NCBI GenBank assembly: GCA_021648405.1 | Contig: JAKISX010000014.1 | Span: 1 to 32,031 of the forward strand | Direction of reading: 5' to 3' | DNA length: 32,031 nt | Source: Sulfurimonas sp. | Lineage (GTDB): Bacteria > Campylobacterota > Campylobacteria > Campylobacterales > Sulfurimonadaceae | Shown here: positions 3,400 to 7,209 of the stretch, one piece after another | Layout of the letters: every line of letters begins with the position of its first letter | Position numbering within the stretch: the first letter of the stretch is position 1 | Translations under genes and position numbers: made by a program | Notes under the pieces: generated by a model | The model's input: only the letters and a program-made list of their open reading frames with translations | What the model was told of the DNA's origin: nothing | Database searches by the model: none

Positions 3400-3428
3400 A
3401 AAAAGTTTAATATTAAATAATATTAAAC
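3400..3428 (-). terminator. Intrinsic terminator of the tetR gene
   Basis: GTTTAATATT (3405-3414) and AATATTAAAC (3419-3428) form a perfect 10-bp inverted repeat around AAAT. Read on the minus strand it is followed by five T (complement of 3400-3404). The TAA stop of the TetR gene (3423-3425) lies inside the stem. It stands back to back with the oor terminator, separating the two converging transcripts. Confidence 0.65.
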
Positions 3429-4034
3429 TTTGATGCTCTCCCAAAAATAATCCACATGTTTTTCAAATTGTGTAGATAGCATATCTGTAGATTTTGAATC
3501 AAAACGGAGTAGGGTAACTTGTAATCGAATATAAAATAAGGTAGAGATAAACTCATATGCCATTATCATTGGGTCTCCTGAGCGAACAAGTGAATTTTGC
3601 ATCATTATAAAGAATCCCTCAGCCAATATTTTTACATTTTTATCATGAAATTCACTCATAAACTGCTCTCTAAGCTCTCTATTTTGTAAAAGCTCTATCA
3701 TGAGCAACCTAAACATCTTCTCGCTATTCTTATCAAATGTAAGTAGTTTGTATTGTTGCGCGAATTTACTAATAAAAGCTTTACCTTTAAGCGCATTTTG
3801 TTTTATTTCCTCATCGTCAAATGAGAATGGAGTGGTAAATATATCTTTTGAAACTTCTAGAAATATATTTTCTTTATTTTTAAAATGATTATACAGAGCA
3901 CTCTGTTTAATTCCTATCTCTGATGCAATTTTTCGCACACTTGTACCTTTGTATCCGTATTCAGAGAATAGGGCAGTTGCGGCTTTTAATATCTTTTGTT
4001 TAGTTGTATTTTTTTTATGATGTTGCGTATTCAT
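3423..4034 (-). CDS. TetR/AcrR-family transcriptional repressor
   Basis: A protein of about 203 residues. The N-terminus carries the TetR helix-turn-helix: KQKILKAATALFSEYGYKG followed by TSVRKIASEIGIKQSALYNH and FKNKENIF, with the typical Tyr-x-His-Phe end of the recognition helix. The rest is an all-helical ligand-binding/dimer domain with no recognisable ligand class. I prefer the ATG at 4034 because the upstream ATG at 4046 directly abuts its only GAG, while 4034 has GGA 7 nt before it; a 207-residue form from 4046 is possible. No efflux or metabolic gene lies next to it. The upstream region holds four palindromic sites that are probably its own operators, so autoregulation is likely. Its inducer and other targets cannot be read from this window. 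Confidence 0.9.
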   Translation of the reverse strand: MNTQHHKKNTTKQKILKAATALFSEYGYKGTSVRKIASEIGIKQSALYNHFKNKENIFLEVSKDIFTTPFSFDDEEIKQNALKGKAFISKFAQQYKLLTFDKNSEKMFRLLMIELLQNRELREQFMSEFHDKNVKILAEGFFIMMQNSLVRSGDPMIMAYEFISTLFYIRLQVTLLRFDSKSTDMLSTQFEKHVDYFWESIKV

Positions 4035-4060
4035 AGGCTTTTCCATCTCTTTTTTTAATT

Positions 4061-4171
4061 ATGAACAGTTGTTAATTAATAATATATTATATATGAACAG
4101 TTGTTAATTTAAACTTATAAGCAATGAACGGTTGTTCATGTAAAGCAGGTACTAAAAGAACGACTGTTCAT
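4061..4171. promoter_or_regulatory. Array of four phased palindromic operators, probably for the adjacent TetR protein
   Basis: Four copies of a 16-bp dyad with consensus ATGAAC-N4-GTTCAT lie at 4061-4076, 4093-4108, 4124-4139 and 4156-4171. The third is a perfect palindrome (ATGAACGGTTGTTCAT). Sites 1 and 2 have one mismatch in the right arm (GTTAAT), and site 4 has one in the left arm (AAGAAC). Start-to-start distances are 32, 31 and 32 bp, very close to three turns of B-DNA, so bound dimers would sit on the same helix face. The array lies between the tetR start and the RNase P RNA gene. Assignment to this TetR protein rests on proximity and on the usual dyad operators of the family. Confidence 0.8.
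4086..4091 (-). promoter_or_regulatory. Candidate -10 element of tetR
   Basis: On the minus strand the sequence reads TATAAT at this position, between operators 1 and 2. Operator 2 (4093-4108) would fill the -10/-35 spacer and operator 1 would cover the start region, the classical layout for repression by a TetR dimer. No good -35 hexamer is seen, as is common in Campylobacterota. Confidence 0.5.
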
Positions 4172-4212: not shown

Positions 4213-4560
4213 CATAGGTGTAATAGATAGTTAATTGTATAGTTTTTTTGCAATAGGAAAGTCCGAGCTGCTATAAGAGAGTGTTCCATCTAACTGATGG
4301 CCAGCGTAAGCTGAGGGAAAGTGCAACAGAAATATTACAGCCACTTAATCGTGGTGATGGTGAAAAGGTGGTGTAAGAGACCACCAGCTTCTGTGGTAAC
4401 ACAGAGGGCTTGTAAACCCAACATGGCAGCAAGAAACAAATGGTTAGCCTCTTATATGGTATTTTAATACTATTGCTTTTGTTTCGCTAGAGATACTTTG
4501 TGAAAAGTATAGTAGATTAATGCTATCACTACAAAACTCGGCTTACATTACACCTGAATT
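4213..4560 (+). ncRNA. rnpB: RNase P RNA (catalytic M1 RNA)
   Basis: The RNA subunit of RNase P, which removes 5' leaders from pre-tRNAs. Conserved bacterial blocks appear in order: GGAAAGTCCGAGCT (4256-4269), GAGGGAAAGTGCAACAGAAA, GGTGTAAGAGACCACCAG, GGCTTGTAAACCC, CAGCAAGAA, and near the 3' end ACAAAACTCGGCTTAC, the strand that pairs back to form P4. The ends are set by helix P1: AGGTGTAAT (4216-4224) pairs perfectly with ATTACACCT (4547-4555). The exact 5' and 3' nucleotides are uncertain by a few bases. Possible promoter hexamers upstream are TATAAA (4186-4191) and TACTAT (4205-4210). The nearest TetR operator ends about 40 nt before the gene. Confidence 0.95.
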
Positions 4561-4860: not shown

Positions 4861-5067
4861 ATGACTAAAAAAGAAGAACTAATATTAGATATACAAAATT
4901 TATTAAATAATTATGACAATGTGCATTCTACAAGTATTAACCCAGATTTACTAAAATTTATGGATGAAAGTACTCTCATCTCTATTATAGATACTTTATT
5001 GACACAAAAAGAAAACAACAAAGAGTCAGATTTAGCATGGCTTGAATCATTTAAGAAAGTAAAATAG
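4861..5067 (+). CDS. Small conserved-looking cytoplasmic protein, unknown function
   Basis: A 68-residue, charged, helical protein with no signal or membrane segment, containing LLKFMDESTLISIIDTLL and ending AWLESFKKVK. I do not recognise a named family. The start at 4861 is chosen because AGGAG (4844-4848) lies 12 nt upstream and MTKKEEL is a plausible N-terminus; an ATG at 4828 gives a 79-residue version with a poorer ribosome site. A five-codon frame (MSQL then stop, 4850-4864) overlaps the chosen ATG as TTATGA and may be a coupling peptide or chance. The next gene, 87 nt on, has its own promoter and encodes a response regulator. Confidence 0.7.
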   Translation: MTKKEELILDIQNLLNNYDNVHSTSINPDLLKFMDESTLISIIDTLLTQKENNKESDLAWLESFKKVK

Positions 5068-5119
5068 CTAAATTTACTTATTGTTTAAAATAGTTTTTAT
5101 GTTATTAACCAAATTTTAC

Positions 5120-5125
5120 TATAAT
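5120..5125 (+). promoter_or_regulatory. Candidate -10 element for the response regulator gene
   Basis: TATAAT stands 30 nt before the ATG at 5155, with an AT-rich upstream region but no clear -35 box. A TAGGA ribosome site follows at about 5143. This fits a housekeeping sigma promoter of Campylobacterota, where -35 is weak. Confidence 0.5.
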
Positions 5126-5154: not shown

Positions 5155-5706
5155 ATGAGCAATATAGACTTAGTACAATTAACACAACAAACAAAAAAAT
5201 TGACTGCAATGGTAGTTGAAGATGAAAAAGTGACCAATGAGTTACTAAGTATAACTTTTAAAACTTTCTTTTCAGATGTAACTTCGTGTTTTAGCGGTGA
5301 AGAGGCACTTTCCGCATACAGTGAAAATCAACCAGATATAGTTTTTGTTGATATAGTTATGCCGGGTATGGATGGTATTGAGTTAGCAAGAAAAATTCGT
5401 GCAATTAATTCTTCTCAAATAATTATTGTGATTTCTGCTACCAATGATATTGAAAAAATATCTGAATCTATAGAAGTGGGTGTGAATAGTTTTATTCAAA
5501 AACCAGTTGATACAAAAAAAATTATTGAGCTCTTAAGCGGAATAACATCATTAGTAAGTAAAAAACAAAAAGTTGAAACTAAAACATTTTCAATCTCTCT
5601 ACCTTTGAATATTTATGACCTCGTAGATGATAATGCAAAAGAGGAAAGCATCTCTAAGAATGCTGTAATCATTAGAGCACTCCGTAGTTTTTATGATAAT
5701 CATTAA
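5155..5706 (+). CDS. Response regulator: receiver domain fused to a ribbon-helix-helix (CopG/Arc-like) domain
   Basis: A 183-residue protein with two parts. Residues ~16-130 are a receiver domain with the acidic pair E22/D23, phospho-acceptor D66 in PDIVFVDIVMPGMDG, Ser94 and the conserved K116-P117. After a short linker (about 131-142), residues 143-181 read KTFSISLPLNIYDLVDDNAK, then EESISKNAVIIRALRSFY. The pattern of a beta strand of alternating residues, Pro, helix, SISKNAVI turn and second helix matches the RHH fold of CopG/Arc regulators. The usual output domains (winged helix, LuxR, NtrC) are absent. The protein is probably a DNA-binding regulator controlled by phosphorylation, with RHH dimers forming the two-stranded ribbon. 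No histidine kinase is adjacent, so its partner is unknown. The RHH call is by eye. Confidence 0.85.
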   Translation: MSNIDLVQLTQQTKKLTAMVVEDEKVTNELLSITFKTFFSDVTSCFSGEEALSAYSENQPDIVFVDIVMPGMDGIELARKIRAINSSQIIIVISATNDIEKISESIEVGVNSFIQKPVDTKKIIELLSGITSLVSKKQKVETKTFSISLPLNIYDLVDDNAKEESISKNAVIIRALRSFYDNH

Positions 5707-5747
5707 TTCAATGAGCTAATTTTATAGTGTTTTAAGCAAAATATTTG

Positions 5748-5753
5748 TAGAAT
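5748..5753 (+). promoter_or_regulatory. Candidate -10 element for tRNA-Glu
   Basis: TAGAAT preceded by TG lies 17 nt before the mature 5' end of the tRNA. No convincing -35 box is visible. A tentative call from position and sequence only. Confidence 0.35.
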
Positions 5754-5770
5754 CACGGCTCACATTAAGT

Positions 5771-5845
5771 GGCCCCGTCGTCTAGCGGTTAGGATCCATG
5801 GTTTTCATCCATGTTACAGGAGTTCAATTCTCCTCGGGGTCACCA
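5771..5845 (+). tRNA. tRNA-Glu (anticodon TTC)
   Basis: A 75-nt cloverleaf. Acceptor GGCCCCG (5771-5777) pairs with CGGGGTC (5835-5841), with one G-T pair. The anticodon stem is CATGG/CCATG around loop TTTTCAT, with anticodon TTC at 5804-5806. The T arm is AGGAG-TTCAATT-CTCCT. The discriminator is A and the CCA end is encoded (5843-5845). It lies 65 nt upstream of a glutamyl-tRNA synthetase gene on the same strand. Confidence 0.97.
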
Positions 5846-5910
5846 ATTACAACAAAGAACTTTATTAGCTAAAACTTGTTAAAATCCAAAAAAAATACTT
5901 AGGAATTTTA

Positions 5911-7209
5911 ATGTTAAGATTTGCACCTAGTCCAACTGGTGATATGCACATTGGTAATTTGCGCGTAGCCCTATTTAATTATATTGTTTCAAAACAAAAA
6001 GATGAAGATTTAATTATAAGAATTGAAGATACAGATAAACAAAGAAATATTGAGAGTAAAGATAAAGAGATACTCGATATATTAGAACTGTTTGGCATTG
6101 AGTACTCACAAGTCATTTATCAAAGTGAAAATGTTAGATTTCACTCTGCAATGGCTCTACAGTTAATACATGACAAAAAAGCCTTTAGTTGTTTTTGTTC
6201 TACAGAGTGGCTTGAATCAAAAAGAGAAGAAGCAAAGATCAATAAAAAACCATATAGATATGATGACGCTTGTGCTAATCTTCCTGATGAGCTTGTTATT
6301 GATAACTTAAATCCTTTTACAATTCGCATCAATAGACCTACAAAAAATATTATTATAAAAGACCATATTAAAGGTGATGTATCTTTTAAGCCTGAGGATG
6401 TAGATAGTTTTATCATTATGAGACAAGATAAAACTCCAACATATAACTTTGCTTGTGCAGTTGATGATATGCTTAGCGATATATCTTTAGTGATTCGTGG
6501 TGAAGATCATATGAGTAATACTCCAAAACAAGACCATATTAGAACTTCTCTTAATTATGATAAAAAAATACAGTATGCTCATCTACCTATTATTTTAAAC
6601 GATGATGGTAAAAAAATGAGCAAAAGAGATAACGCTTCAAGTGTTAAGTGGCTGTTAGAAGATGGATTTTTGCCAGAGGCTATTTCAAATTATTTAATAT
6701 TAATGGGAAATAAGCCCCCAAAAGAGATATTTAGTGTAAAAGAAGCTATTGAGTGGTTAAGTCTCGATAATATATCAAAGTCCCCTGCTCGCTTTGATAT
6801 AAATATGCTAAGACATATAAATAATGAGCATCTAAAGCTACTTGATGCTAAAGAACTCTCAAGATATGTTGGATTTGCGGATGCAGAAATTGGTGAACTT
6901 GCAAAAATTTATCTTGAAGAAGCAAGCACAACAAAAGAGCTTAAATCAAAAATAGAGCCTATCTTTGCACAAAAGGTTATTCCTGATGAATTTGCAGAGC
7001 AATCAGCTCAAATAAGTCAAATTATTAAAGATGCGCCCTACTTTGAGCAATACAGTGATTTTAAAAGTTATATAATGAAAGAATCAGGACTTAAAGGTAA
7101 AAACTTTTTTAAACCTCTTCGTATCATCTTAACTGGTGGCGAGCATGGTCCAGATATTGCTATTATCTATAAATATATTAAAAATTATATTGGAGAAATT
7201 ATAAAATGA
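5911..7209 (+). CDS. gltX: Glutamyl-tRNA synthetase, GltX2-like (possibly charging tRNA-Gln)
   Basis: A 432-residue class I aminoacyl-tRNA synthetase. The HIGH-type signature is [11 protein letters not shown] (residues 6-16), and [11 protein letters not shown] (about 234-244) is the KMSKS loop. The Rossmann and anticodon-binding regions follow in usual order. Campylobacterota generally carry two GluRS paralogues. The opening [16 protein letters not shown] and the [20 protein letters not shown] segment resemble, from memory, Helicobacter pylori GluRS2, which makes Glu-tRNA-Gln for later amidation by GatCAB, rather than GluRS1. Whether this protein is tRNA-Gln-specific is inference. The ATG has TAGGA upstream. 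Its stop overlaps the yggT start by 4 nt (ATGA). Confidence 0.93.

Follow-up and report, generated by a model that had tools for sequence, protein, structure and literature searches.

A conserved response regulator of Sulfurimonadaceae pairs a phosphorylatable receiver with a predicted ribbon-helix-helix output and was probably once partnered by a convergent kinase

The gene at positions 5155..5706 (+ strand) of the window, by which we mean the whole 32,031-nucleotide stretch of Sulfurimonas sp. DNA that was analysed, is an intact open-reading frame with an ATG start and orthologues in related genomes, and encodes a 183 aa response regulator in which a receiver (REC) is followed by a ribbon-helix-helix (RHH) output. 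We consider it probable that this protein is an orphan, lineage-core transcription factor whose phosphorylatable receiver controls a CopG-like RHH unit, and that it was ancestrally driven by a kinase. We infer that it accepts phosphate and binds DNA, and would thereby link a signal to a regulon: phosphorylation at D66 most likely alters the pairing of receivers, altered pairing would change the binding of two or more RHH units to short TGTTA-type repeats, and one cluster of these repeats in the regulator's own promoter would give rise to autoregulation. The ancestral driver would have been a cytosolic histidine kinase with a PAS or FIST sensor, its gene lying tail to tail with that of the regulator. 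A stronger version, in which phosphorylation directly switches RHH pairing on TGTTA across a family-wide core regulator that kept its capacity for phosphorylation and was rewired to a different donor as its dedicated kinase was lost in several genera, is one that we advance tentatively, at somewhat short of an even chance.

The receiver domain covers about residues 18-128 (5206..5538, + strand) and matches PF00072 (Pfam, E 2.3e-24) with 86.1 bits vs. a cutoff of 30.2. Its phosphorylation pocket is complete, comprising the acid pair E22/D23, the phosphoacceptor D66, the switch residue S94 and K116. In the AF2 model of the full-length regulator a confident receiver is followed by two helices, with a low-confidence linker, and the receiver fold resembles those of Spo0F, VicR, CheY and other receivers (Foldseek). 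With PF00072 and a full set of phosphorylation residues, the protein has the sequence features of a response regulator; that it would take its phosphoryl group from a histidine kinase is supported by the convergent kinase of its relatives.

Beyond the receiver lies a basic linker, residues 136-143 (KKQKVETK, 5560..5583, + strand), with low AF2 confidence at residues 140-144; its counterpart in the orthologues is a conserved KKKKIETK. The RHH output occupies residues 144-181 (5584..5697, + strand), an assignment drawn from RHH_1 matches in orthologues, the AF2 helices and the Foldseek match to CopG, and is laid out as an expected strand (TFSISLP), helix A at 151-164 and helix B at 168-182. The sole Pfam match of the C-terminus is RHH_1 (PF01402), which in the window protein scores 14.2 bits over the full length and 17.6 bits in the tail alone, below the cutoff of 20.5, and which matches all 48 of the 48 aligned orthologues (best E 6.5e-5). 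No Pfam match to a winged helix or LuxR-type HTH was found in the C-terminus, nor to ANTAR in the regulator or its 48 scanned orthologues, and a profile of the tail searched against the PDB gave no significant match. A template-free AF2 model of residues 136-183 (pLDDT 91) found as its first PDB match the CopG-DNA complex 1b01 (Foldseek, prob 1.00, TM 0.83 by target length), and nearly all of the top 50 matches are RHH proteins (CopG, Arc, AmrZ, CdbA and RHH antitoxins), with E-values of only about 0.02 because the RHH domain is tiny. RHH is an obligate dimer fold, and the ribbon strand is left unassigned by DSSP in the tail monomer, as expected, because such a strand pairs only in the dimer. 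As modelled, the tail is of the strand-helix-helix fold, and the RHH assignment is not due to chance, because the tail is near-invariant (KTFSISLP...ISKNA.IIRAL) over many genera. The first-pass annotation, made from the sequence without searches, had read an intact receiver with the same five residues (E22, D23, D66, S94 and K116) and a CopG/Arc-like RHH unit standing in place of a winged helix or LuxR domain, and had named structure prediction as a check on the latter and assignment to another family as its refutation; PF00072 above its gathering score bears out the one, and the orthologue matches, the tail model and the lack of any Pfam family besides the sub-threshold RHH_1 agree with the other.

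The regulator constitutes one orthologous family, single copy per genome, and was found in 71 of the 81 Sulfurimonadaceae genomes and 13 of 14 genera. Phylum-wide it occurs in 49 of 397 genomes (family f1, four of f4 and one of f6), those outside Sulfurimonadaceae amounting to five genomes in two families (four f4, one f6), and the matches in named records are to Sulfurimonas and related Campylobacterales. Orthologues share 72-86% identity within Sulfurimonadaceae, 56-59% in f4 and 51% in f6. In a set of 85 distinct full-length orthologues no member departs from E22, S94 or K116 (85/85), and D23 and D66 are each kept in 84, whilst T144 (84/85), S146, S148/T and I166-N169 (ISKN) are kept in the RHH; mean column conservation is slightly higher in the tail than in the receiver (0.91 vs. 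0.87). The lone pocket exception (L116 in genome G329, 5409-5957) carries S23 and E66 with its RHH intact, and retention of the RHH without D23 and D66 fits the RHH as the effector. A search for free-standing or plasmid-borne relatives of the tail found none, the leftovers being a contig-edge fragment and chance-level scores. The copy in genome G004 (L088, around 1965) is interrupted within its RHH by an in-frame stop that follows residue 154 and is either an assembly error or a real loss.

The first-pass annotation also remarked that no kinase is adjacent, which is true in the window and misleading for the family, as 15 related loci have a cytosolic histidine kinase with a PAS or FIST sensor that is convergent with the regulator and mostly adjoins it: four of these loci are in f4, and the other eleven come from six or more Sulfurimonadaceae genera (g19, g23, g76, g77, g79 and g81, plus L009 and L004). 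The f4 kinases (L111-L114) are of FIST-HisKA-HATPase architecture (FIST being PF08495), and the Sulfurimonadaceae kinases, cytosolic and mostly with PAS, take the same position and orientation; no Pfam match to FIST was found in the latter. Gaps between regulator and kinase, measured in 13 of the 15 loci, range from -11 to 93 bp, apart from a gap of 251 bp at one truncated kinase; the remaining two loci, L114 and L004, were read separately, the L004 kinase being cut by the contig end with a stop within the frame. The linked kinase of L190 is truncated, and at L196 (genome G441) the place downstream of the regulator that holds a full kinase in its relatives contains only a fragment similar to the linked kinase. 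The eleven kinases from Sulfurimonadaceae fall into a single clade (support 98/93) and the f4 kinases into another, and the tree does not resolve the FIST and PAS clades as sisters; because the two sets are not one resolved clade, the kinase partner may have been replaced once. Several Sulfurimonadaceae kinase N-termini begin, by eye, like the f4 FIST kinases (MKQLxYxY...). A profile of the linked kinases scored 421-452 bits in eight genomes, at the regulator locus in 8/8, where seven of the eight had contributed to the profile and only G439 is independent; the next-best kinase anywhere in the 81 genomes reached 313 bits, and this search of the 81 genomes found no linked-class kinase away from the regulator. 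The convergent kinase of Sulfurimonadaceae and f4 is probably the ancestral partner of the regulator, which would be orphaned, rather than always partnerless, because that kinase was lost in the lineage of the window.

No linked-class kinase was found in the window's own genome (G000), whose assembly is 82% complete, so a relocated kinase could be missed, and no FIST protein was found there. This genome has two strong general-type kinases, one beside its own regulator and the other an orphan membrane kinase. The orphan membrane kinase (L153 class) was considered as the current partner, a role that is not supported: it lies outside the linked clade, and its class is present in 34 of the 81 family genomes and missing from every g21 genome in which the regulator is retained. 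The lineage of the window has lost the kinase gene and kept the phosphorylation pocket, and because of this the regulator is presumably driven by another kinase or by a small phosphodonor.

The promoter of the regulator has a -10 box, TATAAT, at 5120..5125 (+ strand), aligned over 80 non-redundant orthologous promoters in which this box is often preceded by TG. Ten bases before it stands TGTTATTAAC (5100..5109, + strand), a candidate autoregulatory operator element. TGTTA or TAACA is present in 59 of 75 non-redundant orthologous promoters vs. 34 of 203 other promoters of the same loci (Fisher p 1e-21, a value which ignores phylogeny, the control promoters being less AT-rich at GC 0.31 vs. 0.22 in regulator promoters), and dinucleotide shuffles of the regulator promoters gave a mean of 23.6 (sd 3.8, max 33) vs. 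the 59 observed. The motif is not enriched in gltX (4/29) or small-ORF (9/41) promoters, nor in the linked kinases' own promoters (2/11); the neighbouring tetR promoter has it in 17/20, at a place occupied by a separate palindrome. In the window TGTTANTAAC occurs once, at that element, with 0.63 copies expected by chance, so it is not rarer than chance. Because TGTTA/TAACA repeats mark the regulator's own promoter, autoregulation is suggested, with these repeats as its candidate operator.

A different function for the tail, serving only dimerisation or protein contacts in a regulator that is not a DNA-binding transcription factor, we regard as very unlikely. RHH folds can act as protein-binding parts of antitoxins, and RHH antitoxins are among the structural matches of the tail, but its best match is CopG in complex with DNA, the regulator's own promoter is enriched in TGTTA, and the residues near-invariant in the 85 orthologues (T144, S146, S148/T and the SKN at the start of helix B) correspond to the DNA-contacting positions in the known structures of CopG and Arc. 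Nor is the tail at all likely to be an RNA-binding output, of the ANTAR type or another, like that of EutV, an idea so improbable as to be nearly negligible: EutV does appear among the Foldseek matches of the full-length regulator, yet it is the receiver that produces matches of this type (their rmsd across the full length is 7.7-9.1), the tail is a strand then two helices and not a three-helix bundle, Pfam finds no ANTAR, and the isolated tail matches RHH structures.

The place of phosphorylation in the receiver-controlled RHH factor that we favour can also be questioned. Most lineages, that of the window included, have no neighbouring kinase, and L116 still has its RHH without D23 and D66, as would be the case for a constitutive RHH factor independent of phosphorylation, its receiver a structural remnant after kinase loss; the pocket, however, is intact in 84 of the 85 distinct orthologues, the majority of which have no kinase next to them, and this makes such a reading unlikely. 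It is likewise quite unlikely that the convergent kinase of the relatives is a chance neighbour and not the cognate partner, as the same orientation and near-zero gap recur in four genomes of f4 and at eleven loci of Sulfurimonadaceae, and the Sulfurimonadaceae kinases are a single clade with none of that class away from the locus, although the f4 kinases belong to a different clade and the convergent genes are not co-transcribed.

To our knowledge, nearly all studied response regulators have winged-helix, LuxR-type HTH, Fis or enzymatic outputs. OmpR/PhoB and NarL/LuxR regulators share with the present protein an N-terminal PF00072 receiver and a C-terminal output, but their outputs are a winged helix and a LuxR-type HTH, whereas here the output is an RHH. 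CopG, Arc and AmrZ are without a receiver, whereas the RHH of the regulator is C-terminal to one; AmrZ, as far as we know, has other parts beyond its RHH and no REC. The likeness to CopG, a plasmid RHH repressor (1b01), lies in the output fold (TMt 0.83), the strand pattern and the start of helix B. Lokiarchaeal Arc-type RHH-HisKA-REC proteins likewise hold an RHH and a receiver in one protein, but theirs is an RHH at the N-terminus of a hybrid kinase, whereas that of the regulator is a C-terminal output in a kinase-free protein (PMC5847659). These Lokiarchaeum proteins are the nearest case, as no precedent for a REC-RHH response regulator was found in the open literature searched, and the earlier description of the architecture as uncommon is supported. 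The FIST domain binds haem and senses NO in NosP, of the NosP/NosK/NosR two-component system (PMC12570481). The cytosolic f4 partner kinases share this domain with NosP, but in f4 FIST is fused to the kinase and the regulator output is RHH, whereas the output of NosP/NosK/NosR is HD-GYP (PMC12570481). By analogy with NosP, the f4 kinases may respond to a gas or redox cue inside the cell, which is no more than a lead. A conserved REC-RHH family would mean that the obligate-dimer RHH can come under phosphorylation control. Related genomes that have the neighbouring kinase and others that lack it, together with the pocketless copy, provide natural comparisons for a regulator outliving its kinase, and L116 (S23, E66, intact RHH) is in itself a natural test of phosphorylation dependence.

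Upstream of the regulator in the window are RNase P RNA (4215-4560) and, directly upstream, a small ORF of 68 aa (4861-5067); 3' of it are a tRNA (5771-5842) and then a gltX-like gene. The small ORF adjoins the regulator in 44 loci, and its protein has no significant Pfam family. It was rejected as a dedicated partner because it is conserved across the phylum (121/397 genomes) and is unlinked in f4. At 4063-4169, upstream of a TetR-like ORF (3423-4046, - strand), GAACNGTTGTT occurs three times unchanged and once with a mismatch, matches of this type numbering 7 in the window vs. 1.86 expected; the array looks like a putative operator of the TetR-like ORF itself. Among the relatives, a GlnRS-like gene lies beside the gltX-like gene in seven loci (L006, L008, L013, L015, L018, L020 and L022), and the HIGN motif is altered in 5/7 of the gltX-like N-termini there (e.g. 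MSIGD in L015 and LQLDT in L006), whilst those of L008 and L022 keep HIG despite the GlnRS-like neighbour. The motif is also altered in some loci without a GlnRS-like gene (L001, L030 and L034). Comparison of these sequences suggests decay of gltX2 after gain of glnS.
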